A stretch of 64,000 nt of DNA from NCBI GenBank assembly GCA_944470555.2, contig OX104131.1, positions 16,050,515 through 16,114,514 of the forward strand, read 5' to 3'. The position numbers and the translations under genes were made by a program. Numbering within the stretch: the stretch's first letter is position 1; each line of letters starts with the position of its first letter. This document shows, in pieces, positions 25,301 to 61,831 of the stretch. The stretch is from Heterobilharzia americana (lineage: Eukaryota; Platyhelminthes; Trematoda; Strigeidida; Schistosomatidae). A model generated the notes under the pieces. That model saw only the letters and a list, made by a program, of their open reading frames with translations, did not search any database and was not told the origin of the DNA.

Positions 25301-28300
25301 ACCGCCTAAACACTGAGAAATGCAAAAGTGAGAAAATATCCATTCGTGCAATGGTATTGTGGATTCGCTTGACTTTCTGTATGTCATTCAACAGTTTACA
25401 TTACGAAATGACTGTCAACTGCTACAATAGTTTTTCTTATAATTAACGATTTTAATTTTAATAATCCAAGCTTCTTCGCTTCCCTCTTTACCTTAATCAA
25501 ACAGGATTCTAGTCAATTCGGATGGGCTGGTTTTACAATGATTGTCGCTGGTATCTTCGGATCTGTATTGGCTGGTGTCATTTTGGATAAGACAAAAAAA
25601 TTCAAGTAATATTTTCTTTTCCCTATTAGTTAACAATTATTACATCGTTTTACTTCATTTCTAGAAGTTTATATTGAATTAAGTTGTGTTTCTCGGGCAT
25701 TTCTTATAAGTCGTAGAGAATATTTGCAACTTCTACTGTAGTTATCTCATTCGCTTTCCTTACTCGACTGAGGACGTTTAAACAACAGGCTGGTTGACTT
25801 TACTAGGCCTTTAGTTCATGAAGTATCATTTGTCCTATTTATTTGTTTTATGGAGAGAAAGCAATCCTATGATCATTGATACTATTTTTAATGATCACAA
25901 TTTATTAATAATTGTTTAACAGTTGATGACAAATATCCCATTATCATACAAGACTAAACTTTCATTTAGTCGGCCATGGACTCGAAACCCGTTGCACGAT
26001 GTGCTTGACCCACTGTCTATAGCACAGATGTGTATGTGGTTGCTGAGAGATTTTCTTTTGCACCATCACTAACTCAAAACGTGTACTGATATTCAAATCA
26101 TAAAATCCAGCACAATCAAAACATAATCATTTTGTTTTCAAGAAGATTAGATGAAAAATGGTAACGGAATATTTTGTGACTCCAGATTTATGTAGTCTGC
26201 TAACAGCTTTCTTTGGGTTATGTAGCGTACTCATTGTGTAACGGGTACAGTTTAATATTATGACACTTTATTTCGTTTTGTTGACTGCTTTCGACTTGGC
26301 TGAAGTCGATCATTTTAGTACAAACGAAACAACAACGGGAATCTACAAGTCGTACTCGCTGCACAAGCGGTGGCTACCACAAATTCCTAAATGAAAGGAA
26401 AATGCTACGATCTGTGAAACGGTCAGCATTCGCTCCGAGGATGTAGAAGGATATTCAGCTGACGAATCCCAAACTGGATGAAATTCAGTCTAGATTTCAC
26501 TGTCATCAACTGATCATCCCTTTTTATCAAAATAAAATGTGGAGCCCATGTAGCAACAGAAAGCAGAAGGATTCGGTTCAAACCAAGCATTAACAGGCCA
26601 TAATAAATCTTATTATTATAGTAAGGTAACGAAAATAATGTTGTTGACCATAATAGTTTAACAAAATGACGATGTATTCTTTCTGCTTGAGAAGTTTCGT
26701 CAGCTCACTTTCTTGATTGTTACGCAATCCTAAAAATAACTTATTATTACCTACTTAAGCATATTTTTAATGACGTGATGTTGATCTCTCAGACATACAT
26801 AGATGGACCCTTTTTCTTGTTGTAGCTGTAATCTGCAGATGCATAACTCCTGGAGACACTTCGTCGAGAAAAGACTTCTCTTACCTAACTTTTCATTTGC
26901 TAACTTTTTAAGACAAGAGCAGAAAAGATTTCTAAAATAATATGTGCATATAAATTCTGCGTGTCATATGCTGTTGTTCTTGTCACACAGAAGATCTACC
27001 ACGGGAAACAGCGAGCATAAAATGATTTAGAGTTTAGAGATAGTATTCATCATGGACTGACATCAGTTGGGCAACCATCGAAATTCTGGAAGCACCGGAC
27101 AGCTGTTTCGTTCTAGTATGGAAAATCTGAAAAATATATTACTGTATAGTGCTCATTAATGACATGTTTTTAGATGGATATCACGTAGCTCTAATGAGAA
27201 GCTGTGATCTATAGGGTCAACCAGTCGGAAGTGAGGCGGATGCTAACTGAAGACCTTTGGTGATAGTCGCGCTCTATTGTGGATTGACAGAAGTTGGAAA
27301 TCGCGAACCACTTAAAACCGACCCAGTGTCTGAGTGGTTGACGTGTTAGCCGTGAAACCTGAAGATCCTGAGTTCAATCCCTGGCCGGATCGTGGGTGCG
27401 TACTGCTGAGAGATCCCATACTAGGACGAAACAGCTGTCTAGTGGTCCCAGGCTTTCGATGGTTCCCCAACTGATGTCAGTCTATGATGAATACTACCTC
27501 TAAATTAAAAATCCCCATCCATCTGAAAAATACATTGCTTTAGAGTTTACTTATTTTTTCAGTAATGACTCCAATTTATATTTTACGCAAATCTTTTGTG
27601 AATAATCAACTTTGTTTTCAACTACACTCCTCACATTTCCATAACTGTCGTTCTTGATGTTGTTTTTATTTCTTGTCTTATTTCTCCTCTACAGACTGGT
27701 CACTTGTACTATCTATATTCTCAGTTTATTATCGATGGGTGCATTCGTTGGATATTGTATCTTCGTTCAATGCCTTTAGTTTTTGTTAGTATGTTCTCCT
27801 TAGGGTAAGTTGTTTTACTATGTTTCAACCTGTTTGCATTGCCCTGTCGATAGATAGTACCGTAATGTGATGATGAGGCTTTTATATCACACTGGACCAA
27901 GCGAGTTTTGCTGGTGGAGGTCATATCATACCGAAAGCAGCTTGTTGGATAGTAGCAAAACAAACTGCACATACGTCATGATGAAAGTCCGAAACAGAAC
28001 TCGTATTGCTGGCTGGACAGCGTGTGATAGTAGTGGAGCGCTTGCAGCAGATGACCATAAGTATCATGCTGATGCTGACTGCCTTATGAAAATGGGCGGA
28101 GAGAAATGGTTTGCCTCCAAAATACCACACTCCTTCCTTACCTGCGGTGCCCGGGTGCCAGCAGCACAAGTGTTTCCTGTCCGACGTTGGCATAAGAAAA
28201 CTTCAATCTAACAATAAATAAAAAAGCGGTGTGTGGCACGCCTTAAACAGAAGTCCCAAGAGCTTTGAGATTACTCAAAACTATTCTCTTTTCCTCTTTC

Positions 28301-31300
28301 AGGTACCTTGCAGAAACAGCTTCCATGGTGTAGGCACCCGGGGATTACTAACCGCCCTCAAGCTTCTCAACTGACCAAATTTTCTCATTCAATTAGTAGC
28401 TACCGTGATCTAGTAGCCTAATGGATAACGCTCCAGCGTTTGAATCTATGGTTGCTACTTTCGGGTTTCAGTGTGCCAACCAGCACTCACTTATTCAGGA
28501 ACAAGTATATCCCGCTCCCTAGTCCCAATCAGGATGTAACTTGCATCCTAGATTTCACTGCCGCCCCGTATCCATCATTATTGTCATCATCGAAAAACGT
28601 TTGCACTATGGCCTAGCATAACTCCAAATTAGACTAGTTCACGTGATGTAGCACACAATGAAAGAGTATTATTGTTTCTGGATTGTACTGTATCACATAA
28701 AAAAATTATTATTCGGAACAAGAATAATTTGAGCTGACAATTGTTTTCAAAAACTTCTTCAGGTTCTACATTCAATGCAGCGAAACCTGTTGTCAGGTCC
28801 TCAAGCAAATCATTACTGACACAGCGAACCAAGGATAGGTCACTTATGAGACCCATTTTAATTTGCATTAATGAGTCCAACTGCCCCTGAGGAGCTAGTT
28901 ACATAGGCTGTACTCAAATTGCTCCGTCCATGCGAGCTAGTGAACATGTGCCATCTTTGTTAGGGAAAAGAATGACGAGGAGCATCAATAGTGCAATCCT
29001 CTCACACCTAGTAGGTACCAGACATCAGCTTAAGGTAGATCACGTCTTTTCTGTGATATGCGATGTCTCTTGTAATCTCCCTAAAGGTGCATGACTTTGC
29101 ATCTTATCCATATCCAAAGCCATAGCGAGCAAATCAAGAAAACTGGACCTGTGTGTTCAAAAGAAATATATGCATCCACTTTGCTTACCTTGGCCTACAA
29201 CAAGGTTGACACTTTCTTTATGAACTTTCCTACCACAAATTTCTCACACCAGACTGATGATAATTCTACTATTCTATCCGATTTGATCTCCATTCACCTG
29301 TTACAGTGACTGTTCCAATATAGTAACAATTGAACATCATGCCTTATTTTGGCTATTGTATTTCACACATTCTCATGGATTTATAACTGTAGAGCCTGAA
29401 GAAGTTAGCAAAAACAGTCGTTCACTCAAGTTACTCTTGTTCTGAATAATCTATGAGGATGTTTAAAAACTTATTAAATGATAATATTTACTGTTTTATT
29501 GGTGTTTTAGTGTTGAGGAACTCAGGACATAATGTTGTTAGGTGGTTGCAAAATTGATTTTATTGTTGATCATACTCTGAGAGAATGGATAAGAATAACA
29601 ACCAATGAACAATGACTGATCTTAACTTCACTGCCTTTTGTTCCCATTCGCTGACGTTTTGACAAAACCACCTGCGCTTTTTTAAGCCCTGTAAATTTTC
29701 CATGTGTTTTGTTAAATACCATAATTATTCATAATGTGGGCTGACGGAATACACCTGATTTCTTGATAATACGATCGGTCGTTAGAATGCAATCACAGGT
29801 TAGGATCAACCAATGCATTCAATGAAGTCCTAAAAGGGGTTATTCACAGTCTGAGTGGCTCATTGACAACGTCTGTGACTATTGTGCTGTGACATGGGTT
29901 TTAATCTCTCAGAAAATAGTCAGTACCCTTAAGGGTGCGGATACACCGTGCTGACAAGTGTCAAGATGGGCGAAACCTCGGTAAAACACAGTTCCCTGTT
30001 GATTTCTTCCGACCATCTAACTTTAAACACTTACATAGTAACTGCTGAAATAAACAATAAGGAATTTTTGTGATGTCAGATCGAAAGGTAGCTTTTGGTA
30101 AAATAAGGAAACTATCAATTGGTTATTTCAGATAAACAGACAAAATCAGCATAGAATCTCGCGCACAAATGCATTGGTTCAGTCTACCACACTTCATAGT
30201 AGTATACAAAGAACAGGTGGATTAAAAGAGAGTAATATAAAAGTAGACAACGTTGTGTGAAAGAACAAACAATTTGACACCAACGGGTTAGTGCGAATAT
30301 TCAAGAAGACATCAATGAGTGAATGTATCTGCACCACTGTGACTAGTTTTCAGTCATTTCACCAATATTCCTCAACTACTCATTCCTATCATCCCGAGGA
30401 CCCCAACCAGGCAGTCTACATCTCTCCACATGACTCAGACCAAAAACCAGGGGTTTTAAGGTCTAGTCCTAAGTCTTAGTCTGACCACCCTGAATCCTCT
30501 TCTAACCCAATCCAATTTCCTCTAGCTTTACTCTATACAAGTGATTATAGGTGACCAAAATAAACGAAACCTCAGCGACAATGACCAAGAGGAGAGACAG
30601 TGAGTCAAAATCAATACAGTAATCAAAGGTTAAAGAGGGTTGATCCTGCAATAATAGACCTATAAAAAAGAAAACAACAGTTAAAACAATTACAGCTTAT
30701 TCATTCCAGAACAAATTCTCGGTATATACTTATGAAAAGTTTGCTTGATTCCCTCCTTTATGAAGTAACGCTGTGGATGATTTCTAAACTTATATCTTAA
30801 GCTCTGCTCACCAATGGTCACAACTAGAGAACAAACGTCTCACCACCAGGGCAAATGTTTTATTCATTTCTCTCAGCAAAACAGCCTTTCGTGTTTGTTC
30901 TTTATTTTTATTTCCATTTTTTATTTCAGCTTCTTTATGACTGGTTACTTAAGTTTGGGTTTTGAATTAGCCGCAGAATTAACATATCCAGAAAGTGAAG
31001 GTTTCTCCTCTGGTCTATTGAACACATCAGCACAGGTAGGCGTTTAAACCCTTTTCAAATTGAATGATAAACTTTATCTAACAAAAAAACAAAACAACAA
31101 CATGCAATCATGAATTTCTTATTATCAGTTTAGCTATCTGAGATGACCGTGGTTATGCAGACTCAATAGTACTACTATTGAGTCGTCGGTTCGAATCCAG
31201 TTGCGACCCAGATTTTCACTTCATCTCTAACCATTACCCGGTATCACGAAATAAATGTTAATACAACTCAACGTATTATACGTTTATTAATTATGCTAAG

Positions 31301-37200: not shown

Positions 37201-38157
37201 CCTGTTATTTTTATCATCACTGAAATGATAACAGTAGCCATTACTATTTGTTGATATGCTCATACTTTTTTGTTGTTTTACTGGGTCAGACTGTCCGACT
37301 TCTTTTGGCGTATGACCTCCTATGCGGGAACCTCTATATTGCCTAAATATGTATTATGATAATTTACTTGGTTGTGGCTAGCAGAGGAATATAGGGTACT
37401 CTTGTCTATTGTACCTCAGTGGTCTAGTGAATAACGCTTTGGCGTTTGAAGCGATGGGTAAGAGGTTCGTGTCTCAGTGGGAACAATACCACTCACTGTT
37501 GTGCGGGTACGTCCAGCTGACGAGTCCCGAATAGGACGAAGAGAGTATCCTAGATTTCATTGCTATCCACAACCAGGCAAATTTTTATAATTTTTATTTT
37601 TATCTAGATATCTGTTACCTGCATGCCTAATGTCCTACTGACCACAGACTAAAGAATCCACTATGACTAGTTTAATGTTTTATATATGAGAAAATCCATA
37701 CACATTAGCACATGCATATTAGCATTATTAGCATTTCATCGAAGTCACCTTATCGAACAATACATTTTCTGCCACCCGCAATATGGAAGCTCGATGAATA
37801 CCATACAGTTGTCATTCTCACAGCGGGATACAGAACATCTCTATGCCTACTAGTTAAAACATGCCAATTACCGAGGAAGGTCAACATAAAGTGATTTTTA
37901 AGCAGCAACCAGACCAGATGTTCAATCTTGTTTAATTTTTCCTATCATGGTTCCGATATTAGTATAGATCATATTTAAGTAAATCACTACTAATTTGTTG
38001 ATTCATTACAACAGGCGCTTTGTAAACAGAATTTTCTCTTCACTATTGCTACTCGTTAACATATAAACGTTTTCGCTAACCATTCATTGTTATTGTTTTA
38101 CACATCATTTTAGTATCGATCAAAGAGAATCTTCTTCGTCAACAAGCTCATGAGCGA
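3866..38157 (+). CDS. FLVCR: FLVCR-like (SLC49) major facilitator transporter, internal nine-exon part of the gene
   Basis: Vertebrate FLVCR1/2 proteins are 12-helix plasma-membrane carriers linked to haem export and choline/ethanolamine uptake; the substrate here is not deducible. Exons, in order: 3866-4073, 9217-9387, 9433-9684, 13962-14029, 25505-25605, 27695-27804, 30930-31035, 34750-34861, 38114-38157. Together they give about 390 codons, against roughly 530-555 residues in vertebrate proteins. Family signatures seen include [20 protein letters not shown] (compare FKEKPxxPPS), [34 protein letters not shown] followed by TYPESEG, and IFGLILI...[10 protein letters not shown]. The first helices (upstream exons) and the C-terminal exon are not found in the window. 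All junctions are GT/AG and keep frame except in exon 27695-27804, which is one base short. The loop before the second helix bundle is much longer than in vertebrates. Family assignment is strong; functional integrity is uncertain because of the frame break. Confidence 0.9.
4144..4330 (+). repeat. tRNA-headed SINE (family D)
   Basis: A tRNA-like head (GTGGCTCATCGGTTTAGGG and a B-box-like GGTTCAAGTTC) is followed by a tail with TAGGTAATA and ACACAGTAGGTGT, then TTGCCTACTG and GTGGTTGCTGAG. The tail recurs at 34977-35130. Confidence 0.55.
4331..5160. other. Intronic DNA, nothing recognised
   Basis: AT-rich intron sequence between repeats. No splice-bounded open frame with family similarity was seen on either strand. 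Confidence 0.4.
5170..5525 (-). repeat. Foldback tRNA-like repeat (family B), copy 1
   Basis: Begins with the inverted terminal motif ATTCATCATGGACTGACATC, then the TTTCGTCCTAGT box and a reversed tRNA-like module (CCTCCAGGTTCCACG, then TTGAGCCACTGGTCA). The body runs on with the CATAGCGCGACCTCC and GTGCCCCGCTATTCACG motifs. A second short terminal fragment lies at 5555-5612. Confidence 0.65.
6088..6465 (+). repeat. Foldback tRNA-like repeat (family B), copy 2
   Basis: Nearly complete plus-sense copy: GCTCATTAGTGACATG start, a tRNA-like module (GGCTGAGTAGTTAATAC, then GAAGGTCCTAAGTTCAACCC), the ACTAGGACGAAACAGCT box, and the end motif GTGATGAATACTACC. Confidence 0.7.
6466..8425. other. Intronic DNA; a 3'-UTR-like retrotransposon scrap at 7080-7330
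   Basis: The stretch CTTCAAGTTGAAGGATAGTG at 7110-7130 and the sequence after it resemble 45510-45660, the minus-strand 3' region of the CR1-like copy there. It is probably an antisense 3'-UTR fragment. The rest shows nothing I recognise. Confidence 0.35.
8430..8860. repeat. Head-to-head alpha-type SINE pair (family A)
   Basis: A minus-sense fragment (8571-8640, GACTCGTCAGCTGAATG) is followed by a plus-sense copy (8719-8857). The plus copy has the A-box-like GCCTAGTGGATAACA, the B-box-like GGTTTGAATCTC and the body CAGCTGACAAGTCCCAAATA. The flank at 8430-8525 (GGATCGAATTGCTCGACC) recurs beside other copies. Confidence 0.65.
8861..9216. other. Intronic DNA before exon b
   Basis: No repeat or coding feature beyond the T-rich tract leading to the acceptor at 9216. 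Confidence 0.4.
9217..9387 (+). CDS. FLVCR: FLVCR-like exon b (cytoplasmic loop start)
   Basis: The acceptor is GTCAAG before 9217; the two bases TC complete the Phe codon left open by exon a. It starts [10 protein letters not shown], the counterpart of the FKEKPxxPPS loop that follows the sixth helix in vertebrate FLVCR. The rest is hydrophilic, with many K, N, D and H and no membrane segment. The donor GTAATG follows 9387 and opens a 45-base intron. Confidence 0.85.
9388..9432 (+). other. 45-bp mini-intron of the FLVCR-like gene
   Basis: Starts GTAATG and ends TTTTTTCTGTAG. Removing it joins a split Glu codon and keeps the frame. All other introns in the gene are 2-11.5 kb. Confidence 0.8.
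9433..9684 (+). CDS. FLVCR: FLVCR-like exon c (loop end and start of helix 7)
   Basis: The acceptor is TTCTGTAG and the donor GTAAGC. One base from exon b plus AA restores the frame. About 60 Ser/Asn/Asp-rich residues lead into [20 protein letters not shown], which matches the KRLL..xxFVLLxxSYG entry to helix 7 in FLVCR. A clean 83-codon open frame across the exon supports it. Confidence 0.9.
9685..10257. other. Intronic DNA, nothing recognised
   Basis: No family similarity or module seen on either strand. Confidence 0.4.
10258..10294. repeat. (TA)n microsatellite
   Basis: Uninterrupted TA/AT run of about 37 bases directly upstream of the CR1-like fragment. Confidence 0.95.
10330..11290 (+). 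pseudogene. CR1-like non-LTR retrotransposon, RT C-terminal third and 3' UTR
   Basis: The broken plus-strand frames read [52 protein letters not shown], then [12 protein letters not shown] and IPKSRGISG. These are the last part of the RT domain and its C-terminal tail (consensus VLLYGCETWPL, FDHRCLR, GWGPRDxRNxW). There are many stops, so it is not functional. The 3' UTR resembles that at 3190-3330, including GTGTGGCAACTGGAGGTGAT. Confidence 0.75.
11291..11835. other. Intronic DNA, nothing firm
   Basis: A weak tRNA-like stretch near 11490-11570 may be an old SINE remnant; it is not clear enough to name. Confidence 0.3.
11836..12182 (+). repeat. Foldback tRNA-like repeat (family B), copy 3, diverged
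   Basis: CTCATTAGTGACTTG start, AAGTCGTGACCGGTAGG, then the box ACTGGGACGAAACAGCTGTT and the end AAGTGATGTCAATTCATGG. Same order of motifs as copy 2. Confidence 0.6.
12183..13961. other. Intronic DNA; possible retrotransposon UTR scraps
   Basis: 12430-12760 is T/C-rich and resembles the 3' UTR of the CR1-like copies. 13430-13510 has GATATTGAAACGTTCACCAA, a motif seen in untranslated parts of some retroelements. Neither is firm. Confidence 0.25.
13962..14029 (+). CDS. FLVCR: FLVCR-like exon d (helix 7)
   Basis: This is a 68-nt exon with acceptor CCGCCAG and donor GTAAGT. The split Gly codon gives [18 protein letters not shown], then ILLEYFT. It matches the SYGINVGxFYAISTLLNQ helix of the family almost position for position. 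It ends in phase 0. Confidence 0.9.
14030..14605. repeat. Head-to-head alpha-type SINE pair (family A)
   Basis: A minus-sense fragment (14290-14372, ending CACCCCAGTGAGTCGGGG) is followed by a plus-sense copy (14456-14600). The plus copy has CCCTAGCGGATAACGCTACG, GGTACTGG, GTACACCTAGCTGACGAG and CATGTCCTGGATTTCACT. It lies just downstream of exon d. Confidence 0.65.
14606..15554. other. Intronic DNA, nothing recognised
   Basis: No coding or repeat module identified. Confidence 0.35.
15555..15848. repeat. Foldback tRNA-like repeat (family B), copy 4, short form
   Basis: Left terminal arm (CTGAAGTCAGCTGGAGAACC) and right arm (TTCTCCAGCTGATTTCAGTC) are inverted copies. Between them is a plus-sense tRNA-like module (CTCAGTGGTAATGTGCTCG, GAAGATCTTGGTTTC). 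Confidence 0.65.
15849..16789. other. Intronic DNA, nothing recognised
   Basis: No supported feature. Confidence 0.35.
16790..16985. repeat. Head-to-head alpha-type SINE heads (family A)
   Basis: A minus-sense head (16790-16862, GTACCCATAGCTTCAAATGC) faces a plus-sense head (16926-16985, CCCCAGTGGCCTAACGGAGA, then CGCTTTGGCGTTTGAAGCGA). The plus copy stops after the tRNA-like part. Confidence 0.65.
16986..17544. other. Intronic DNA, nothing recognised
   Basis: No supported feature. Confidence 0.35.
17545..18225. repeat. Two adjacent foldback tRNA-like repeats (family B), copies 5 and 6
   Basis: 17545-17852 begins ACTGACATCAGTTGGAGAAC and ends with its inverse (GATGTCAGTCCGTGATG). Its tRNA-like module is reversed (GGCCAGAGATCGAACTGAGG). 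17885-18225 is plus-sense, with TTGCCTTGAAACCTGTAGGT, GTGGGTGCGTACTACTGAGG and the end CGATGAATACTACCTC. They are adjacent and oppositely oriented. Confidence 0.7.
18226..18770. other. Intronic DNA, nothing recognised
   Basis: A 61-codon open frame at 18316-18501 has no recognisable family or flanking splice logic. Confidence 0.35.
18771..18897 (-). repeat. Alpha-type SINE (family A), minus sense
   Basis: GGAATCTAGGATACGCATTT, then GACTCGTCAGCTGGATGTAC, and at the right end the reversed A box GCGTTATCCACTAGGCCAG. Confidence 0.75.
18898..20149. other. Intronic DNA, nothing recognised
   Basis: No supported feature. Confidence 0.35.
20150..20640 (+). pseudogene. CR1-like retrotransposon C-terminal fragment
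   Basis: [20 protein letters not shown], then [16 protein letters not shown], correspond to the LRWLGHVLRMxxHRLPRRAM tail of the RT protein. A diverged end with [10 protein letters not shown] follows. The T/C-rich 3' part after 20510 resembles the other copies' UTR. Confidence 0.65.
20641..21269. other. Intronic DNA, nothing recognised
   Basis: No supported feature. Confidence 0.35.
21270..24740 (-). pseudogene. Ty3/gypsy LTR retrotransposon relic, gag-pol in fragments
   Basis: Read on the minus strand from high to low coordinates, pieces appear in gag-pol order. A gag-like piece is near 24430-24560 ([20 protein letters not shown]). A protease end is near 23750-23870 ([18 protein letters not shown]). 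RT is at 23190-23345 ([20 protein letters not shown]), continuing to the connection domain at 22875-23126 ([20 protein letters not shown], then [19 protein letters not shown]). RNase H is at 22430-22600 ([24 protein letters not shown]). An integrase C-terminal-like end is at 21540-21600 ([17 protein letters not shown]). Frames are broken repeatedly and no LTR pair was found, so this is an old inactive copy antisense to the host gene. Confidence 0.65.
24741..25504. other. Intronic DNA before exon e
   Basis: No supported feature except the T-rich tract before the acceptor. Confidence 0.4.
25505..25605 (+). CDS. FLVCR: FLVCR-like exon e (helix 8 and DK/DR loop)
   Basis: The acceptor is AACAG and the donor GTAATA. 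It reads [20 protein letters not shown], then [11 protein letters not shown], matching the xxGxxGLTIVIAGMLGAVISG stretch and WLDRSKxYK loop of vertebrate FLVCR. It ends with two bases (AA) of a Lys codon. It is separated from the previous exon by an intron of about 11.5 kb that holds the gypsy relic. Confidence 0.9.
25606..26435. other. Intronic DNA, one SINE scrap
   Basis: 26020-26060 (ATGTGGTTGCTGAGAGA) resembles the tail of family D. Nothing else was recognised. Confidence 0.3.
26436..26508 (+). repeat. Alpha-type SINE (family A), 3' fragment
   Basis: TCAGCTGACGAATCCCAAAC, then GGATGAAATTCAGTC and TAGATTTCACTG. Confidence 0.6.
26509..27034. other. Intronic DNA, nothing recognised
   Basis: No supported feature. 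Confidence 0.35.
27035..27510. repeat. Foldback tRNA-like repeat (family B), copy 7, long form with clear terminal inverted repeats
   Basis: The first about 85 bases (TAGTATTCATCATGGACTGA...GTTTCGTTCTAGTATGG) return inverted at 27415-27505. Between them is a complete plus-sense unit from GTGCTCATTAATGACATG, with a tRNA-like module at 27328-27395 (GTCTGAGTGGTTGACGTG, then CCTGAGTTCAATCCC). It lies just upstream of exon f. Confidence 0.75.
27695..27804 (+). CDS. FLVCR: FLVCR-like exon f with a one-base frame break
   Basis: The acceptor is CTCTACAG and the donor GTAAGT. The incoming frame reads [20 protein letters not shown], then CIFVQCL and a TAG at 27777-27779. The frame required by the next exon reads [12 protein letters not shown] and joins [10 protein letters not shown] perfectly. 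Both halves fit the expected helices 9 and 10, so the exon is homologous throughout but 110 nt long where 111 or 108 would keep the frame. The break lies roughly between 27750 and 27779. It may be an assembly indel, since a TTTAGTTTTT run is adjacent, or a real lesion. Confidence 0.8.
27850..28250. other. GC-richer unidentified ORF block
   Basis: Open frames of 114 codons (plus, 27867-28211) and 90 codons (minus, 27921-28193) overlap in a block visibly richer in G+C than the flanking intron. It is followed on the plus strand by AATAAATAAAAAA at 28212-28224. The plus frame is rich in W, C and K and matches no family I know. It could be a retroposed cDNA fragment, a repeat of unknown type or chance. 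Confidence 0.3.
28402..28565 (+). repeat. Alpha-type SINE (family A)
   Basis: Head TAGTAGCCTAATGGATAACG, CTCCAGCGTTTGAATC and a B-box-like GGGTTTCAGTG. The body has TAGTCCCAATCAGGATG and CATCCTAGATTTCACTGCC. Confidence 0.7.
28566..29839. other. Intronic DNA, nothing recognised
   Basis: Several short open frames lack codon or family support. Confidence 0.35.
29840..30020 (+). repeat. tRNA-headed SINE (family C)
   Basis: A degenerate head (GAGTGGCTCATTGACAACG, GGGTTTTAATCTC) is followed by GGTGCGGATACACCGTGCTG and ACAAGTGTCAAGATGGG. The body motif is shared with 35360-35470 and 63300-63380. Confidence 0.55.
30120..30600 (-). pseudogene. CR1-like retrotransposon tail, antisense
   Basis: The minus strand reads [19 protein letters not shown], a stop, then [14 protein letters not shown] and YIHSLMSS. 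Further upstream is [12 protein letters not shown]. The same 3' region recurs at 49272-49590 (GGACAAAGTCAGCGTAGAA-like and GTCAACGAGTGAA-like motifs). Confidence 0.7.
30930..31035 (+). CDS. FLVCR: FLVCR-like exon g (signature helix, TYPESEG)
   Basis: The acceptor is TTATTTCAG and the donor GTAGGC. It encodes [19 protein letters not shown], then [16 protein letters not shown]. This is the most conserved FLVCR signature (vertebrate FFMTGYLPLGFEFAVELTY, then PESEG.SSGLLN.SAQ). The exon is 106 nt: one base completes a Gly codon and 35 codons follow. Confidence 0.95.
31138..31275 (+). repeat. tRNA-headed SINE (family E)
   Basis: GAGATGACCGTGGTTATGCA, then a strong B box GTCGGTTCGAATCCAGTTG, followed by TTTTCACTTCATCTCTAACC. 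Similar tails are at 48660-48720 and 60060-60140. Confidence 0.6.
31505..31655 (-). repeat. Foldback tRNA-like repeat (family B), left end fragment
   Basis: CTCATTGACTGACATCACTT, CCTAGGAGCACTGAACAAC and TCTTAGTATGAGACTTG. Confidence 0.6.
31656..33065. other. Intronic DNA, nothing firm
   Basis: 32240-32900 has mixed composition that could be an antisense retrotransposon remnant. I could not assemble protein motifs from it. Confidence 0.3.
33066..33190. repeat. SINE family C end fragment
   Basis: AGCAAGGCGTATCTCCAACC (inverse of the GATACGCCTTGCTGACGA motif), then CTCAGGACTAGACAAGTATG and GGTTGCTCTCTAGTAGTTGA. The second part recurs at 63470-63525. Confidence 0.5.
33191..33889. other. Intronic DNA, nothing recognised
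   Basis: No supported feature. Confidence 0.35.
33890..34075. repeat. SINE family E, diverged
   Basis: GTGACTATCTGAAATAGCCG and TGGTTGACAAAATCGTATTA, then GGTAGAAATCAAACCAGCGG, a reversed B-box-like element. Confidence 0.45.
34225..34283. repeat. (TAC)n and (AAT)n microsatellite
   Basis: About five TAC units followed by about fourteen AAT units. Confidence 0.95.
34750..34861 (+). CDS. FLVCR: FLVCR-like exon h (last helices)
   Basis: The acceptor is GATAACAG and the donor GTGAAT. It reads [20 protein letters not shown], then [17 protein letters not shown]. It corresponds to the xFGIIFTxxxGxxxxxYGxxPGNIFLxxxLxxGxxLT segment of vertebrate FLVCR. It ends with one base of a split codon. Confidence 0.92.
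34977..35130 (+). repeat. tRNA-headed SINE (family D)
   Basis: GTCTGGACGTCTAGGAAGTA, then CACACAACAGGTCTGTCTAA, TTACCTACTGCACGAACGCG and GTGATTGCTAAGTGAC. Same order as at 4200-4320. Confidence 0.55.
35325..35475 (+). repeat. SINE family C
   Basis: GTGGGACACCAGTTCCAAAG, GCAGATACGCCTTGCTGACG and AGTGTCAAAAAGCAAGAGG, ending GATTGCTTCGAACCAACTAA. Confidence 0.55.
35476..36630. other. Intronic DNA, possible 5' part of a Penelope element
   Basis: Lies directly upstream of a Penelope GIY-YIG end. An 87-codon frame at 36298-36561 has no recognisable motif, and the rest is uninformative. Confidence 0.25.
36640..37020 (+). pseudogene. Penelope-like element, GIY-YIG C-terminal end
   Basis: Plus-strand frames read [47 protein letters not shown], then [16 protein letters not shown] and stops. 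This is the end of the GIY-YIG endonuclease domain of Penelope-like retroelements, whose copies typically read HLVDTGH...AIAIRxxxPxLCxQKxFVxxLxLPW. The 5' YIG part is degenerate. It is sense to the host gene, inside an intron. Confidence 0.75.
37072..37082. repeat. C11 homopolymer
   Basis: Eleven C in a row, just after the Penelope stop codons; a likely length-polymorphic or error-prone site. Confidence 0.9.
37412..37580 (+). repeat. Alpha-type SINE (family A), best full copy
   Basis: tRNA-like head: ACCTCAGTGGTCTAGTGAAT, AACGCTTTGGCGTTTGAAGC, then the B-box region AGAGGTTCGTGTCTCAGTGG. Body: GTCCAGCTGACGAGTCCCGA and AGGACGAAGAG, ending ATCCTAGATTTCATTGCTA. The preceding 37235-37390 matches the flank seen at 47440-47580 in inverse order. 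Confidence 0.8.
37581..38113. other. Intronic DNA before exon i
   Basis: No supported feature. Confidence 0.35.
38114..38157 (+). CDS. FLVCR: FLVCR-like exon i (cytoplasmic tail start)
   Basis: This is a 44-nt exon with acceptor CATTTTAG and donor GTAAGT. It reads [15 protein letters not shown], which aligns with the AFIKADLRRQKANKE tail after the last helix of vertebrate FLVCR. It ends in phase 0, so at least one more exon should follow; none could be identified securely. Confidence 0.8.
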
Positions 38158-39594: not shown

Positions 39595-40040
39595 ACTAGC
39601 AGTGGAATCCAAAACTTGCGTTTCGCTCTATTTAGGACTCGTCAACTGGATTTACGTGTCTACGAGTGAGTGATGTCTCACACTGACTCAAACCCGCAAC
39701 CGATAGCTTCAAATGTCAGAGCGCTTCTCACTAGGGCACTGAGTCTTGATAGTCACTTCTTGTACAATGAATACAGTTCCGACGTTACTGCATGTAATTT
39801 TCGATCAATTTGATCTAACCAAAGACGGGAAATTGCCAGTAGTAACGTTGGAACTGTATCTGTGGCACAGGGAATGATCATCATGACTCGGTGGCCCAGT
39901 AGGTGAAGCCCTGGCATTTGAAGCGATCGGTTCTTGGTTCGAGTGTTGACGAGAACAACATCACTCACCAAGGTGCAGGTACATCAAGCTGAGTAGTCCA
40001 CAATAGGGTAAGGTGCGCGTCCTAAGTTCTACTACCAGCC
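39595..40040. repeat. Head-to-head alpha-type SINE pair (family A) with a hairpin between
   Basis: Minus copy 39595-39750 (GACTCGTCAACTGGATTTAC; GAGCGCTTCTCACTAGGGC). Plus copy 39885-40040 (GACTCGGTGGCCCAGTAGGT; CTTGGTTCGAGTGTTG). Between them 39774-39804 (CAGTTCCGACGTTACTG) and 39828-39862 (AGTAACGTTGGAACTGT) are inverted repeats. Confidence 0.75.
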
Positions 40041-41009
40041 TATGTCTATCATTAGTACCAGACTGAAAATGTGGGCAATATCGAAGCGTCCAAATGGGAG
40101 CCCATATGCCATTGGCGACTAATCTGTTCAGCTCAGTCAGGCAGAACTGTTAGTGAAAATTTAGTTACATGCGTTCTGGACCTAGGGGAAAATAAACAGT
40201 AAACGGATATGGAAGCTATTAATAATTTTTAGCATAATATCCATACCCTTCGATCATTGATGCCTAGTGTGAGGTGAGTCCCCGGCAAGCAGTCATTTGT
40301 TTCCTAAGTGATACACATCATTGGTTAATGGTTTTCACAGACCGGTTCTATATACTTCTGTGGCTACCAATAACTGTTTATTTCGTCAAAATACCCTACA
40401 AGTATTTTTAGCTAAATCAACAAACAGTTTAATTCACTCTCAGATTACTTTTCTCATCTAAGACCAAGCTGATTGTTTGCTTTCCGGATAAAGGAAGAGA
40501 AACATTAGTAACAGAATTAGCTTGCATATATTTCATGGATTTTCCTCAGATACTTTACAACCTATGGAATATAATGTTTATGATTACAAATAGGGTATAC
40601 AAAGTACTTTTGTACATCGACAAGAATGTTTTGACTAAAATACAAGGTAACAAAGATTTAGGTTTTTCTAAATTGATGAAATTCGATACAGTTGTTAAGG
40701 CTACTCGAAGTTTAGCTAATTATACAATGAGAGAATGAACATTCTAAGCAAAATAGCAGAATAAATAGGAGAACGTTGTACACAAGGCTATTCTAGGGTT
40801 GACAAAAATGACGTCATGGTTAAGTAAGCGTAATAAGAGGTCAGTTGATTTTCAATGTATTGAGTAATAAGATGAATACAACTCAAAAAATGAGAGTAGG
40901 TTTCGTAATAGATTGAAAGAGAAAATGAAAAAACTTAGAGGGTCATGGAATTCTGTAGTTACGAATTAAGGCAATTAATTCAATTTAAAGGTTTATGGGG
41001 ACTAATTGA
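40041..41009. other. Nothing recognised
   Basis: 40070-40150 shares CGAAGCGTCCAAATGGGAGC-type sequence with the flanks of other alpha copies. A 67-codon frame at 40535-40738 is unassigned. Confidence 0.3.
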
Positions 41010-41345
41010 TTTCAAGCTGATAGTTATCATGGACTGACATCAATTGAAATGACATTAGGAACCTGGGAGCACTAAACCGCTGCTTCGTATTGGTATGGAA
41101 CTCCTCAGTAGTGTGCACTCAGGACCTTCAGTTCGTATGGCCAAAACGTTTCCATTGAGCCACTTGGTTGGAATCCAGTGGTCTACATTTTCAACTTCTG
41201 TCACGACATGGAGTGACCTCCTTCCAATGTCATCTTTGCAGATTTGTCCTTAGCTCCATCCGGCGTGCCCCGTCGGTCTCGACTACCCATTGGAACTTCG
41301 CGAATCACCCCTCAAAGTTAATCACCGATAAGCAATAGATTAACT
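41010..41345 (-). repeat. Foldback tRNA-like repeat (family B), copy 8
   Basis: ATCATGGACTGACATCAATT, CCTGGGAGCACTAAACCGCT, reversed tRNA-like module (ATTGAGCCACTTGGTTGGAA), then GGAGTGACCTCCTTCCAATG and GCGTGCCCCGTCGG as in copy 1. Confidence 0.7.
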
Positions 41346-42541
41346 CAAGGCGATTAAATTTACCAAGGTAAAGCAAGATTTACACCAGTTTCCTTCCAGA
41401 AACACAGATCAGATTTGGGTCCTTGAATTGCAAAGCGAAACAGACAGTTTTGGGCTCAAGTTGTTTATCGGTCACTTGGAACGATTTCAATACGTTTGGT
41501 ATGAAATAAATGCAAAGCAATTGCTCCATTTGAACCGTTAAGGTGCCAATCCTTCAGCATGTATTGAGAAACGTGGATAAGAATCCTTCTTTCTGTCCTT
41601 CCAATGTATGCGCTTTTTCACGTACATATGAACTAATAGATACAGTCAGTGATAACGAGAACTGGGAAATTATCCCCTTTGGATAGCCTGGATGTGTAGT
41701 TAGTCTGGTGCACAAGCAGAGATTATCTTGGAGGCTGGATTAGTCCCTTTCAGCGCAATGCTCATTGTGATGATTTTCTTTTCTTTCAAGGCAAATTTGA
41801 GAAAGATGGGTTTATTTTCAACCGTACTATACTAAGTTTTCGTTTCATATCATTGATAAGTACGAAGGGAGAGAAACAGATGGAGCAAAAATTTATTTCA
41901 TTCACGAACATCTTTCTCCATTTAAGATTTGGTTGGATGTCCTTTTCTCTCCTCATGTTTTTTTTATTTTTATCTGATAAGATAAGTAGTCATGTTGACT
42001 AAGATTGTTGTCATCATCATCTTTAACTAAAATGATTTCACTGTAATAAAATTCCCACAGAAGGTGACAGGATATATAACATCTTCTGGTAGGTTGAATT
42101 AAAATGGCTGTAATTGTAATTGCTCTGACTGCTGTACAATATGTTCATTAACTGTCATCTGCCATCTAACAGCATATCTCAGCCTTCCTTGCATTTCCTC
42201 TTTTGTTATCCCATGAGAACTTATGTCGTCTATATCCATGACATTTTTCTGTCAGTGTTGTCATTATTGCTCTGAAGGAATAGTGCTCTTCCATTGTTTG
42301 TGTAATTGTTAATATTGGTCTTGATTTGGCAGCTATGGCCTACATTTTACTTTCTCAGTGTTATAAACATTTAAACATTGAACTGGACATTCTGATCATT
42401 AATGGCAATTCCCAAGATTTATCATTTTGCTTTTTAGGTCAACCCATTTACTCTCATAAACTAACCTTTTAACCAAAACATATAATTTCAAACAGCAGAG
42501 TTCCCTTCATAAATTAGGACAAAGTAAGAAGGATGAGATTT
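41346..42541. other. Nothing firm; possible retroelement remnant
   Basis: 41360-41830 looks like a degenerate coding remnant on the minus strand, but no domain could be named. Confidence 0.25.
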
Positions 42542-42961
42542 GCATAAATAGTGAAATAACATCATCCCATCTCACGAATACTCTTCACCTGCACCCATCA
42601 TGTTCAAAAGTACAATGGTTATAAAGACATAAGATATTTCTAAATTAGGAGATCAATGATAATCCATATCATATGTGAGCGAATTACTCATTGTAACAAA
42701 GCAAAACTCATGATAATTAACTTCCAAATTAAAAATCCCCATTCATCTCAAAAATAAATAAAGAGTTATGCAACAGAAATGAGAGTGAAGCACGATTAAA
42801 TCATAGTCATCATGAGAGTGAGAGATTAACCACACTCTTCTTCTGTATGTAGAGGTCAGGTTGAAAGCGTTTTATAGCAATCCCTTCCACGGAGAGTAGT
42901 AATTCGAACGTTTTCTGCACATCTATTATTCTGAAAGCCCTCGAGGTTGCAACCTGATATC
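42542..42961 (-). repeat. Left arm of a near-perfect 420-bp inverted repeat, carrying a Penelope GIY-YIG end
   Basis: The minus strand encodes the Penelope C-terminus (VATSRAFRIIDVQKT, SVEGIAIKRFQPDLYIQKKS, VVNLSLS, stop at 42810), then about 270 bp of shared 3' sequence. The inverse of this arm is 43179-43598; I counted two differences over about 420 positions. The minus copy continues into the spacer as TITSAIVRHLVDTRYQ. Confidence 0.9.
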
Positions 42962-43178
42962 TTGTATCTACGAGGTGTCTGACGATCGCACTGGTTATGG
43001 TTTTACTTCCTTTCAAGCACAGATTCTTGTGGATATGGGCTGCATAGTGAACTGAATGAACACCCTCCTCTGGGTCGCTTCAATGTACTTGTAGTAGCAA
43101 CTACATATGAATTCATAAATACACTTGGAGATGAAATGAGCAGAATAATTATCCAATTTCGACTGGTTTAGCGAGCAT

Positions 43179-43598
43179 GATATCAGGTTGTAACCTCGAG
43201 GGCTTTCAGAATAATAGATGTGCAGAAAACGTTCGAATTACTACTCTCCGTGGAAGGGATTGCTATAAAACGCTTTCAACCTGACCTCTACATACAGAAG
43301 AAGAGTGTGGTTAATCTCTCACTCTCATGATGACTATGATTTAATCGTGCTTCACTCTCATTTCTGTTGCATAACTCTTTATTTATTTTTGAGATGAATG
43401 GGGATTTTTAATTTGGAAGTTAATTATCATGAGTTTTGCTTTGTTACAATGAGTAATTCGCTCACATATGATATGGATTATCATTGATCTCCTAATTTAG
43501 AAATATCTTATGTCTTTATAACCATTGTACTTTTGAACATGATGGGTGCAGGTGAAGAGTATTCGTGAGATGGGATGATGTTATTTCATTATTTATGC
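43179..43598 (+). repeat. Right arm of the near-perfect 420-bp inverted repeat
   Basis: Same Penelope C-terminus in plus orientation, starting inside the domain at 43179. Spacer to the left arm is 217 bp (42962-43178). Just outside the arms the match falls: about 25 bp with roughly four differences (42518-42541 against 43599-43622), then fades. Confidence 0.9.
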
Positions 43599-44107
43599 GA
43601 ATCCCATCCTTTTTGCTTTGTGCAGAGCTTATAAACCTTTGTTTGTTGTTTTGCTGGACCTTTTTTGGGTCACACGCTGAATATTTTTTGTCTAGCCAAG
43701 GTAAGTTGAAAAGCTGTTGTGTGCAGATGCAGAATATGGGCTCTATAGTGAGATAAAATGTAATTTCATACCAGAGAAGTCTATCCAACATGACACACGC
43801 CGATGGAGTATTATGTTTTCTGAGTGACGTATACAGCCGAAAGTTTCACTCACAATACTAGCAAGGGGGATGACACAACTTTTTGACCTATTTATTATCA
43901 TCTTTTGTTCTATCATTTTATTAGAAGTAGAATTTTCTGTATATTTTGGAATCGCCTCTGAATTATTTCTATTCCTCGTATAAGGCACTGATTCAATGTA
44001 AAAAGATTCAACAATCACCCATTCACTTCACTTACCTAATATTCATCTGTAGGGATGTTAGTGATGCTGCATAGTGGGGAGCAGTGGCATCAAAACTAAG
44101 AATGCCT
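43599..44107. other. Unassigned minus-strand open frames beside the inverted repeat
   Basis: Minus frames at 43516-43791 and 43743-44018 (91 codons each). The first includes AQSKKDGIRINNEITSSHLT and continues from the arm, so it is probably repeat-derived. No known domain. Confidence 0.3.
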
Positions 44108-44260
44108 ATCGTGACTCAGTGGCTTAGTGGTGTTTGAAGCCCCCGGTTCCACCTTCGGTTGTTAGGAGGAATAAAATCACTTACTAGGGAGCAGGTACAT
44201 CTAACTAATGATTTCTAAACAGGCCGAAACGTGCATCTTGGGCCCCTCTGTTAGCCACTA
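44108..44260 (+). repeat. Alpha-type SINE (family A), diverged
   Basis: GTGACTCAGTGGCTTAGTGG, GTTTGAAGCCCCCGGTTCCA, GGAGCAGGTACATCTAACTA, then CGTGCATCTTGG. Confidence 0.65.
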
Positions 44261-45439
44261 TTAGGAAAATTACCATATAATGAATGGTCAGGAAATAACT
44301 AGGTATCCACATACGAGCCCATCTATTAACACAGACAGGTAAATTAATTCAATCTATTATAACAACGGGTAGTTACAAGTATCATAAAATCAAATCAATT
44401 GAAGATTTTACAATAACAGAAATTCATCTGATAAGAGAGATGCCAAGCAGTTCCACAGGTGGATTCACCTTGAGTTTCTATCAAACAGAATAACTGAAAC
44501 TCATCAGCAGTGTGTAATACTTTGAGAAGTACTGATTTTACATAGTTGAAGAAAGTGCCAGTGATAGAAGTGACTTTCTTACTGTGTGATTCATTATTTA
44601 GAAATTAAATGCCTAAATTAGTAAATCAGTGCAGCTAGTTTCTAGTGAACAGAATTCTCTGACTACTTTTTCTACTGTTATGACGAGTAGCATTGCGTTT
44701 TCTTGAAGGTTATCAGATGTTGTCTGCAGGTACTCACCATGTCTTTCACACAAAGTTTTAAAGATCTAGGCTGCGTAACTCTTACGAATGAGAGTTCTAA
44801 GTCACTAGAGTATCTAATTTCAAGCATAATCATCCTTGAGTCTATATGTGGTTATTCTCATAAGGAAATCGTACAGTATAATGCACTGAAGAAAGAGGAA
44901 CATCTTTTTGTCAAGATATTCGATGAGTGGATGAGTGATTGGGTGTGTATGTGAGTGAGTGAGCGCTTCGTAACTTTTCTTTCATCTTCACACTATGTAT
45001 CCGGTTAGATCTTGTTGAACTATTCTAAAATGGGCTGGTTTGATAAACTATAATGACTCAAGCTTTCATTTTAACTGTAGTTATTCCTTCTGTGCATTAA
45101 GAACAGTTCGCTAGTCAAGATGATTTCAGATAGTCTAATTAACAATAGTCACTTTTTTGCCAACAATGGTATACACTTGCTTGAGTGATTTAGTTTTTCT
45201 TAAAAATTCAGATTTTTATACCATCGAAAAGTTACCTTGGACGGTGTGAATATCTGGCATTGATCTAGGAATTCACTTTTTCATTCTCAATAACCTATTT
45301 AATTTTATTTAAATTATAATATGTAGCCAAGAATGTAAATAGTTCTACGCTGGTTTTCTCAATTTGGGAGGATTTTATGACTACCAGAGATCAGTGGTCC
45401 TACATCATCTGCCGAGTAATTTGGTCAGTTTGCATCAAA
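44261..45439. other. Nothing firm; unassigned 83-codon frame
   Basis: Plus frame 44703-44954 includes SFTQSFKDLGCVTLTNESSK. It is unusually long for this base composition but matches nothing I know. Confidence 0.3.
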
Positions 45440-46760
45440 ATGGAACCTGGCAATAATGCATAATGATCCGTGTAGCTTCACATCACATTACGATATCAAG
45501 ATAAAATACTTCAAGTTGAAGGTTAGCGAAATAAGAGCAAGAAAGTAATCAGAAGTAGTGGGAAGTAGTAGAAAGAGTGATAGAAAGATAAGGCAAGAAA
45601 GATACTTGGTATAACGATTAAGATTACTATAATTTGTGCATGACTCTGCATTGCTAACACCGTTAATCAAAAAATATCACCTACAGTCTTCAACAAAAAT
45701 TGAAGTTCTCACTTGGACCCTAAAAATGCAGTCTGCACCCCGTTAAAAGACTCAGACGAACAGTCAAAGACTTCATGAATTGATGTCACGTTCTAGTTTG
45801 ACCGCGTTTAACCATTTTTCCGCCTAAACATACTTTATCTGAGATTGCACGATGGAGTAGATGGTGACTGGGTAAACATAAAACGTGTCCAGATCATCTG
45901 AATAGAAGAAAGTTTACAACCTCATCAGCTGACCCACATCAACCACTTAAAACTATGTGTTTAGCATCTGCGTTAGTAACATGATGACTTCAGAACACCT
46001 GCCCTATACTACGAAGGTGAGAGTTGCACAGCACGAGGGACCTCCTCGTGTCATCCGGCGAAAGTCAGCCTAACCTTTTGCATCCATGCAGGGGTTGTTG
46101 ATCACCGACCTACCAGGGCTGATCTTATCTCTCAAATAAGTGAAGTGGCCAACACAAGCAACAATTTCAATTGCCACCGTTTGACAAAACACAAGTAGAG
46201 ATCAGTCCTGTGGCCACAACTTGCATTTGGGTCATAGGAAACAGGCTCGAAGAATTCTGAAACAGGCAGTCAGTATGTTTAGAAGACTGTATCTTATCAA
46301 CACCTTCACCTAATTGGACTATGTCATCTGCGTACTCTGGTCTACTAAGGAGTCTCCTCTGACCAGGCCCATCCCTGTAAAGTCATATGAGAAGAGAGAG
46401 ATCTGCATAAGTACACGTATGGTAAAATTTAATAAGAATGGAGGGAGTGGACACCACTCAACGTACACAACCATTGTGATATCTCACCAAATGTTACAGC
46501 TTGCCCATATTTGTTCTCTCATACTGGGATGTACTTAGGCTGAACAACTTCTGATAAGAAACTCTCATACCACCTCTTGATCGACGGAGTCGAATACTGA
46601 CTTTAACTCAAGGAATACAGCTAGTGTCATGCACCGATAAGTGTGACTTCACTAAAGAACTCGGTGGAGGGAGAATGTCTGATCGATACACTTATAACCA
46701 CGTCTGTAAACTATCTTATTTTATCGGGTCCACCGTTCACGTACTTCAACTAGGCATCCA
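45440..46760 (-). pseudogene. CR1-like retrotransposon RT with YADD box, antisense and frame-broken
   Basis: On the minus strand, in order: WCPLPPFLLNFTIRVL (RT core, consensus GCPLSPFLFNF), GMGLVRGDSLVD, then after a frame change PEYADDIVQLGEGVDKIQSS, with the catalytic YADD at 46323-46334. Later come SGHVLCLPSHLLHRA, GKMVKRGQTRT and HQFMKSLTV. The 3' UTR extends to about 45480 and resembles 7110-7300. The YADD is intact but the ORF is broken by stops and shifts. It is the longest copy of this family in the window. Confidence 0.75.
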
Positions 46761-47263
46761 ATGTTTATGAAACCTAGAGTCTTAGATACTGTGTTCATTA
46801 GACTGATTCCCTGTGTTTATCACAGAAGGATTTTCATACTCTGTCTAACACAACTTAATCGAACCAATGTAGCTCGACCAAAGTCTTAAAATATCTCTGG
46901 CACTAACCTTTTTGAGCTTACTACCCGTCGATTCATTGTTGTTGATATACATCAATTCTTCTACTTTACAAATAATGGATATATTTAAATTGTGGAACTT
47001 TTCTAGACAGTTCCCTGTTTGATTCAATCAACTATTGCAAACACTGATTCTACGTGGTGTTACTGTATAACACTTTAAACTGCCCATATACGAGATGGAT
47101 CAATAATAATAATGATCGTAAATTGAAAAAAGCACATTGACAAATGAAGATGAAGAGAAGCTGAAGGCTATAAAGAAACGTCACATAGTGTTCAGAACGT
47201 ACACCAAGCTTGAAGGCATTTATAGTATTGAGATAAATTCTGAACCATATAGTAACTAGGTTG
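46761..47263. other. Nothing recognised
   Basis: No supported feature. Confidence 0.35.
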
Positions 47264-47640
47264 ATTGTGGCTAGCAGAACCCAGGACGCGCATTTCGTCC
47301 TATTCGGGACTCTTCAGCTGGATGCGCCTGCACCCTAGTGATGTTGTCACCACCAGGAGTCGAACCTCGGACCCGTCGCTTCAAACGCCAAGGCGTTATC
47401 CACCATGCCACGGAGGAACGATAGCCACCTCTTGTACTATTACTATTTATTGACGTACTGGTTATTCTCCCTAGTTTGTTTCGTTGGATTGAATTGTTCG
47501 ACTGCCAACCAAGTTATCATAATTAACATTCGGGCAATATAGAGGCATCCGCATAGGAGCCTATATGCCGATAGAGGTCGAACAATTCGATCCAACAAAA
47601 CAACGGCGAATAACAAGTATGTCAATAAATAGTAATCTGA
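47264..47640 (-). repeat. Alpha-type SINE (family A), minus sense, with adjoining inverted repeat
   Basis: 47264-47432: GGACGCGCATTTCGTCCTAT, GACTCTTCAGCTGGATGCG, reversed B box GAGTCGAACCTCGG and reversed A box GGCGTTATCCACCATGCC. Next, 47443-47503 and 47573-47637 are inverted repeats (GTTGGATTGAATTGTTCGAC against GTCGAACAATTCGATCCAAC). Confidence 0.8.
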
Positions 47641-47920: not shown

Positions 47921-48215
47921 GGCTAGCAGTGGAATCCAGAACATGTGTTTCGTCCTATTTGGGACTCGTCATTCGGACTTACCTGCATCCCAGTGAGTTG
48001 TGTTGTTCCCGCCGAAACTCAGACCCAGTACTCATCCGATGAAATCCGTGTCATGGATTCCACTACTGGTCACCAAATAGATTACAATGTAATGAATAAC
48101 CTGGGCAGAATTGAGGCATCTATATAAGAGCCCACCTGCCAGCAGATGTCGAGCAATTCGAACCCAGTATAGCAAAAAAGGGTTACAAGTATCAATTAAC
48201 GACAGTGTATGTAGT
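47921..48215 (-). repeat. Alpha-type SINE (family A), minus sense, with body remnant
   Basis: GCAGTGGAATCCAGAACATG, TTTCGTCCTATTTGGGACTC and CTTACCTGCATCCCAGTGAG. 48100-48180 repeats the flank seen after other copies (GAGGCATCTATATAAGAGCC; GTCGAGCAATTCGAACCC). Confidence 0.75.
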
Positions 48216-51349: not shown

Positions 51350-52605
51350 GATAATTCCATTTCAGTCTGTCTATTAGAAATTTCACACAATGAAGCAACA
51401 GTATTATTTACTGGATAACGTTTTGGACATAATTTATTGTTCATATTCATATCAGGTAAGTCCACTACTTACAGACAGAGTTTATACGGTCCTAATTTTT
51501 TCTCCTTCTTTGTGATGACAAGGGTAGTAGAATTTTCCATATATCTGGGGTAAGTGCAGAATCATTTCGACTGCATGTATTTAGTGTTGATTCGATAAAC
51601 AAAGATTTGGTTATCAATCTCTCTCTCTCCATACACCCAACTAAGTTACTTTTCAACATTGTCGATCTATCCTATCCTACTGTGTGATTGTGTTCAGTTG
51701 CATGCAGAGCTATGGCCGAGCTTTTTCTAAATTTCTTCTTATTAGGATCTACTAATCCTGACTTAGCTAAGTTTTGTGCTCTGTTATTCTAATTGAAGCT
51801 GGTCGACTACTTTGACCTACGTATTTGACCTCGCAATCATTTCAAGGGATTTGGTAAACCAGATTATTTTAGTTGCATCGATAGGATCTTTTAACCTACA
51901 AAGCTTGTTTCTAAGCGAGTTTGTCGGTTTAAATACCAGTCTGTTTAATCCCAGCATTATTGAGAATTCTTCTTAGTCCTTCTGGGGTACCTTCCTTATA
52001 AGGTAACACAGCAGAGACTTTGAATTCACTCTCAACCCTGTCACCATCATTACTATTAGCAGCAGAATAATTATTAATAACACCTGTATTACTACTACTG
52101 CTAATATTTTTCCTTCGACTTCGCACGAATTTATTTATAAACTTAGGTGGGTTAGTATTGAGATGCAAGGTATTCTTCATATATCTAATTTCTTGTTGTA
52201 GATTTTCTGGCCCACTAGTAAGCATTTTCGCCCTATTACTGAGGCATTTAACTAAGCCTACTTTAACTGAAATGTGGTGGGGGTGGATTCGAAGCCTGAG
52301 TAACGATTCGAATGGGAATGTTTTCTATAGATACCGGTCTCTAAACTTCCGTCTTATGTTCGTATAATTTTGCATTCCACCATTGCTAGCTCAACCTTCA
52401 TATGGATATCAATATGTGAAAAAATTTTACTACGCTTGCCATCACAAAGAAGGAGAGAAAATTGGGACCGTATAAACTCTGTCTGAAAGTAGTGGAGTTG
52501 CCCGGTATGAATATGGATCATAAATTGTATCCAAAACGTTATCGAGTAAATGATACTGTTGCTTCACTATGTGACATTCCTAATAAACAGACTAAAATGG
52601 AATTA
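51350..52605 (-). pseudogene. Penelope-like element 3' half with flanking inverted repeats
   Basis: The minus strand has LVKCLSNRAKMLTSGPENLQ, MKNTLHLNTNPPKFINKFVR and KVSAVLPYKEGTPEGLRRIL, then NNAGIK. After a frame change come DCEVKYVGQSSRPASIRITE, KKFRKSSAIALHATEHNHTV and MLKSNLVGCMEREI. These are the RT thumb, linker and GIY-YIG domain (here Y-V-G; a TGxG-type spacing is not conserved). Segments of about 190 bp at 51350-51540 and 52412-52605 are inverted copies flanking the body, both encoding a KRYxVNxTVASLC phrase. Confidence 0.75.
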
Positions 52606-60145: not shown

Positions 60146-60324
60146 ATTAGATAATTAGTTTTATTCTGATATTGTCGCCATCTTACTAACAGAAGTTATA
60201 GTACTATTTAAAGACACCTGAATCTCAAAGCGTCTACCTTTCAGTGGGCTAACTGAATTCTGAGTTCATGCTTCAATGAATAATGTTGTAATTCAGACTG
60301 TAGATTTGTGGAGATTTATTGATT

Positions 60325-60748
60325 GATTCACCATGAACTGACATCATTTGGCTAAACATTGGAAAACTGAAAGCCCTGTTCAGTGGTTCTCCCACAAATC
60401 TCTAAACTGGATAACTGTCCAGTGTTTTTAAGTTACTTGAGTCTAGATGAGGTTGCCGATGTTCTAAGGAGAAGTTATGACTAGTGGAACGATGGCATGG
60501 ATGAAGGTTGTACTATATCGTGAATTTACAGAAATAGGAAAATATGGGACACCTGATCTAAACTCATTGGCCTTTTATCATAATGCTCACCGTGAAACGT
60601 AAGGTTACTTGGTTTCATCCCTTTTGGGGTCCTGCGTGTGCACTGCTGAAAATTTCCATACTAGAACGAAACAGCTGTTCACTGCTACTAGTTTTTCAAT
60701 GGTTCTCCAAGTGATTTCAATCCGTGATGAATGCTAACTTGAAATAAA
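60325..60748. repeat. Foldback tRNA-like repeat (family B), copy 9
   Basis: Left arm ATTCACCATGAACTGACATC; right arm GTGATTTCAATCCGTGATGA. Between them are AGAAGTTATGACTAGTGG, TGTACTATATCGTGAATTTA, CATAATGCTCACCGTGAAAC and CTAGAACGAAACAGCTGTTC. Confidence 0.7.
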
Positions 60749-61269
60749 GTCGTTCTTAACAATCCAGACATCATCTTCAATAAGCTCTCAGAAGGAATAA
60801 AAGTTGATAAATGATGCCACTTACCGTATCACAGGTAGGATTCCGCCCTTCCTCTATCGAACCGATATTCACTTAATAGCAGCCACTCCTTTCTTTCAAC
60901 ATCACTTGCCCACTAGCTTTACACATCACATTTAGCACCTTAGTAGATAAGAAACTCTTTGGCACTAAGACAATATATCGTCATCAGTCAAAACAGCTTT
61001 CAAAATCTTACTCAATCTCCAGCTTCGATCCCCATATTACTTTGTGTCCTTATTTCCGAGTGATAGCCACCATCAAACTTATCCGAACCCTTCTACCCAT
61101 CCGTCTACAACAACTTACGTTTAAAGACCATTACGGCTTTTTAAGCAACTGATCTCTAACAATCATTTTCTAATCGACGATTTGTTTCGTGTCAAACGAA
61201 GGACAAGTTACCTAGTTTCGTTACTTCCATGTGTATTTAACAAGTTAATTGGTCATGTGGAGACAGTTA
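60749..61269. other. Nothing recognised
   Basis: No supported feature. Confidence 0.35.
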
Positions 61270-61778: not shown

Positions 61779-61831
61779 GACATCTGTCTACACTGTCATG
61801 ACATTCTGAACATTCGTATTATCCTTAAGGT

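Follow-up and report, generated by a model that had tools for sequence, protein, structure and literature searches.

An inverted head-to-head pair of putative Penelope-type 3' ends in Heterobilharzia americana, with an identical core beside a diverged edge that favours later gene conversion between the arms

Analysis of a 64-kb stretch of Heterobilharzia americana DNA (hereafter the window) bore out the near-perfect inverted repeat that had been predicted at 42.5 kb. Positions 42542-42961 and 43179-43598 are inverse copies of each other, differing at exactly two of 420 sites (42551 and 42949) and separated by the expected 217 bp. The drop in similarity just outside these arms was likewise recovered, 42519-42541 pairing with 43599-43621 with four differences in 23 bp (42525, 42528, 42536 and 42541), and counts per 20-bp block beyond this edge, from 42000 to 42519, gave 2-11 matching bases of 20, those within the spacer giving 3-8 of 20. 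At the inner edge the pairing extends three bases further with one difference (42962). The full arms, edges included, are 42519-42964 and 43176-43621, each of 446 bp with 211 bp between them, and carry seven differences, of which six are transitions. An unbroken run of 397 identical bases (42552-42948, partner 43192-43588) forms the core; on its outer side five of 33 sites differ (42519-42551 versus 43589-43621), and on its inner side there are two differences in 16 bp. Of the 22 inverted pairs (60 bp or more) that were listed in the window, this one is the longest and the most alike, the runners-up being 196 bp at 83% and 185 bp at 88%. The features of the locus are as follows.

42519-42964, minus strand: left arm, 3' end of a putative Penelope-type copy (last ~49 codons and ~290 bp after the stop)
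43176-43621, plus strand: right arm, putative inverted partial copy of the left copy's 3' end, head-to-head with it
42965-43175, minus strand: spacer, probable upstream coding continuation of the left copy as far as 43129 (P0002 match)
42552-42948: identical core, left half, proposed conversion tract
43192-43588: identical core, right half
42519-42551: outer diverged edge, five differences in 33, partner 43589-43621
42810-43079, minus strand: 89-codon open frame ending at the putative Penelope-type stop, C-terminal part P0002-like
43381-43430, plus strand: 50-bp post-stop piece of the right arm matching the edge of a dispersed repeat; mirror 42710-42759

P0002, a 215-aa unnamed Heterobilharzia protein carrying a YIG motif, matched the minus strand at 43129-43067 and then at 43055-42813 (E = 1.5e-8). 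The two matching pieces of the left copy are separated by one frameshift and contain no stop, and YIE stands in the left copy at the position corresponding to the YIG of P0002. Because the match runs through both segments, most of the spacer would belong to the left copy, and the left arm together with the spacer as far as 43129 is, judged from these alignments, a single copy of a putative Penelope-type 3' coding end. That the spacer, to at least 43129, apparently continues the coding sequence of the left copy upstream is a point missed by the original prediction. The 49 codons of the right arm share 98% protein identity with those of the left arm, whereas P0002 itself matches the right arm weakly (E = 0.19). 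The copies lie head-to-head with their 3' ends outward, and each continues for ~290 bp past the stop, in agreement with the earlier statement that ~270 bp of every 420-bp arm follow the stop of the coding piece common to both arms. The further argument that the unit could for this reason not be two independent insertions is not supported, as a retroelement 3' end would normally carry post-stop sequence, which two copies made from it would have in common anyway. The locus would then consist of a 5'-truncated Penelope-type 3' end beside a shorter inverted copy of the same end, and the outer limit of the arms would correspond to the 3' end of the element.

The name Penelope and the GIY-YIG label of the coding piece are assigned from sequence motifs, which, together with the homology to unnamed Heterobilharzia proteins, suggest a Penelope-type GIY-YIG element. 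Protein relatives, all from H. americana and none bearing the name Penelope, were obtained in two of three query searches; the search with the 89-aa frame gave no homologue. A GIY-YIG domain was not found with Pfam, a PDB search for GIY-YIG gave nothing credible, structure models of P0002 and of two window frames (mean pLDDT 34) gave no confirmation of GIY-YIG, and the viral contigs searched held no relative of P0002. Direct terminal repeats of at least 25 bp were absent from 40000-46000, the terminal repeat being present here as the inverted 446-bp copy, and the interval 39651-47279 gave no hammerhead ribozyme match with an E value of 1 or below. A hammerhead motif has been reported for part of the Penelope class and not for every member, and its absence is not taken as excluding this assignment. 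In the window as a whole, ten type I hammerhead matches were observed, two of them below the Rfam gathering score and eight at or above it (3588-3632, 8801-8845, 14534-14578, 18773-18817, 37511-37555, 39607-39651, 47279-47323 and 47934-47978). These hammerheads and the H. americana protein relatives are in keeping with a schistosome host.

The seven differences are distributed very unevenly. When they were placed at random over 446 bp, a clean run of 397 bp arose in none of 200,000 trials and in one of 1,000,000 in a second run, and in five of 1,000,000 when the last 3 bp were dropped. The outer 33 bp hold five differences versus one in the next 410 (Fisher p ~1e-5, with the edge chosen after the data had been seen). 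The divergence of this outer edge (5/33) is near the level of another inverted pair at 51 kb (12%), and at the divergence of that pair (23/185) a stretch of 397 clean bases would have a probability of ~1e-23. Only the outer edge is robustly diverged; at the inner edge the evidence is slight, with two differences of which one lies within the last three bases. Because the identical core adjoins a diverged outer edge, a single recent snap-back with evenly spread mutations afterwards is disfavoured, and the first of the two alternatives offered in the original prediction, homogenisation of an older inverted pair, gains support. On the simplest reading, favoured by this arrangement of differences, the inverted pair would be older and its core the product of a later overwriting, for which a third copy could have been the donor.

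A single recent event could still have made both arms by snap-back or two-strand priming, with the edge derived from a slightly different template or from pre-existing homology. It is consistent with the two differences in 420 bp and with a left copy that shows one frameshift and no stop in its matched coding sequence and so need not be old; furthermore, two-strand extension (PMC11167929) and self-priming (PMC3846280) are described for Penelope-type elements in the excerpts of these reports. However, the outer edge is diverged although 397 bp are identical, so that a template change within the last 33 bp enters as an extra assumption, and the 51-kb pair has diverged by 12%; we therefore hold a single recent event to be possible and rather unlikely. 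An artefact of assembly or polishing, in which mis-mapped reads equalised the arms or a chimeric read was incorporated, is very improbable: over-polishing of near-identical arms could yield exactly identical 397 bp, but an adaptor chimera would not account for a 211-bp spacer between non-matching flanks or for the diverged edge, and polishing would, by reasoning, hardly erase a divergence of ~12%.

Head-to-head insertion, drift and later conversion between the arms together form the explanation that we prefer, with moderate confidence in the whole. A Penelope-like retroelement would have left a 5'-truncated copy of its own 3' end, to which a second, shorter 3'-end copy would have been attached head-to-head in the opposite orientation, possibly with both target strands priming reverse transcription or, alternatively, with the first cDNA folding back and priming on itself. 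The two 3' ends would have drifted apart by roughly 10-15% after insertion, and gene conversion would later have replaced ~400 bp of one arm with the sequence of the other, sparing the diverged outer edge. Either priming route could fit the anatomy of the locus. Inverted pLTRs of Penelope elements, most commonly head-to-head, are described in rotifers, with self-priming as the proposed origin (PMC3846280, in extract), and a Penelope-type protein is reported to cut both strands of its target in vitro and to extend them (PMC11167929, likewise in extract).

Candidate marks of the insertion were also scored, and the outcome for target-site duplication counts against the preferred explanation. The match between the flanks at 42 kb was no significant target-site duplication, being equalled by 6.6% of 2000 shuffles and by 17% of 3000 random pairs, nor was that at 51 kb, equalled by 23% of shuffles. 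The junction palindrome at 43178-43185 was rejected as a mark of self-priming since its score was equalled by 28% of 500 random places, and GATATC, present at both junctions, was rejected with 36 occurrences in the window.

Compared with known systems, the locus most resembles Penelope of Adineta vaga, for which the extract of PMC3846280 describes truncated elements accompanied by an inverted copy of their terminus (most often head-to-head), suggests self-priming and mentions small RNAs against the elements. In contrast to that description, the inverted segment here includes the last ~49 codons, there is neither a direct repeat of at least 25 bp in 40000-46000 nor a significant target-site duplication, and the arms are mostly identical beside a diverged edge. 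For the Penelope/Poseidon element PAc of Anolis carolinensis, a protein of the same class acts on both strands of a target, cleaving and extending them, which offers one route to head-to-head copies, whereas the pLTRs in the excerpted description are tandem and direct, with no inverted copies in that portion (PMC11167929). Sj-penelope1 of schistosomes belongs to the same element class and is likened by class, not by sequence (PMC3409120, in part). The arms of sex-chromosome palindromes are similarly kept alike by gene conversion, but those structures are large in the excerpted account (PMC7023750), whereas the present one is a single 0.4-kb retroelement end. The inverted head-to-head form is thus already known for Penelope elements, and an identical core beside a diverged edge is less ordinary; the literature examined, represented by extracts, held no description of arm conversion in Penelope copies or of the present locus. 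The locus offers a concrete case of head-to-head insertion of a putative Penelope-type element, and probably also of short-range conversion between inverted arms, in a parasite genome.

The inverted form does not look unique to 42.5 kb. At 51 kb, inverted arms of 185 bp (51352-51536 and 52421-52605; 23 differences, 12%; 88% alike) stand on either side of another putative Penelope-type coding piece, which shares 70% identity with Heterobilharzia protein P0001 over 86 residues. P0001 and P0002 match each other over 35 residues (14 identical), and a search of the 51-kb locus with P0002 gave no match. The 51-kb locus (51352-52605) appears similar in plan to the 42.5-kb pair. An 18-bp near-palindrome lies beside the inner junction of the 51-kb pair (52399-52416), its score being equalled by 3% of 500 random places. 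In a similar but more diverged arrangement, a third Penelope-type C-terminal piece (61139-61568) is surrounded by two copies of a dispersed repeat in opposite orientation (60226-60747 and 61819-62336; score 88 versus at most 47 in 60 shuffles). Within 600 bp, an inverted partner was found for four of the nine Penelope-type pieces tested in the window (two of the nine being weak in their protein match, E = 0.06 and 0.24), at scores that no more than 3.3% of 300 random window positions attained; the other five had no inverted partner in their flanks. The binomial probability of such recurrence is 1.4e-4, with the threshold set afterwards and the pieces treated as independent, and when the flanks were widened to 1000 bp the null fractions for the four were 0.007-0.053. 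The case at 28 kb, among these four, differs in kind and is not a terminal copy: there, an internal Penelope-type coding piece lies inverted (28708-28767, 29391-29450) downstream of the 3' coding end of the same copy.

This density of Penelope-type pieces, nine tested in 64 kb, speaks for a further alternative, in which two members of one family inserted separately, side by side and in opposite orientation, and were homogenised later. The right arm, however, starts at 43176, only ~46 bp from where recognisable left-copy sequence ends (43129), and a similar plan occurs again at 51 kb, and we consider separate insertions improbable.

The RNA of the plus strand from 42519 to 43621 is predicted to fold into one hairpin (-836 kcal/mol, a value given without a shuffle control at that length), in line with the long hairpin originally proposed. 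In Schistosoma japonicum, siRNAs of both senses from Sj-penelope1 are enriched in SjAgo2 libraries, as stated in the extract of PMC3409120, and because of this enrichment the idea that such a hairpin would be a source of siRNAs is reasonable. If small RNAs do arise from the locus, it would link an insertion habit to double-stranded RNA feeding the element's own silencing. A broader proposal, which we put forward as decidedly speculative and doubtful, is that schistosome Penelopes often insert head-to-head and so seed hairpins, some of which would be kept perfectly paired by arm conversion and become lasting sources of Ago2-bound siRNAs silencing the family. G.U pairing on the plus strand is kept by five of the six transitions at the locus, versus 49 of 100 transitions when six further inverted pairs from the window were scored; selection for hairpin pairing was dropped as a candidate, six transitions being too few for any claim.

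The 50-bp post-stop piece at 43381-43430 is 82.7% identical to 27484-27535 (E = 2e-8), at the edge of a dispersed repeat. This repeat, which contains inverted sub-repeats, was observed at 17500-18250, at 27001-27560 and elsewhere, and it is the edge of one such copy that matches the piece inside the 42.5-kb arms.
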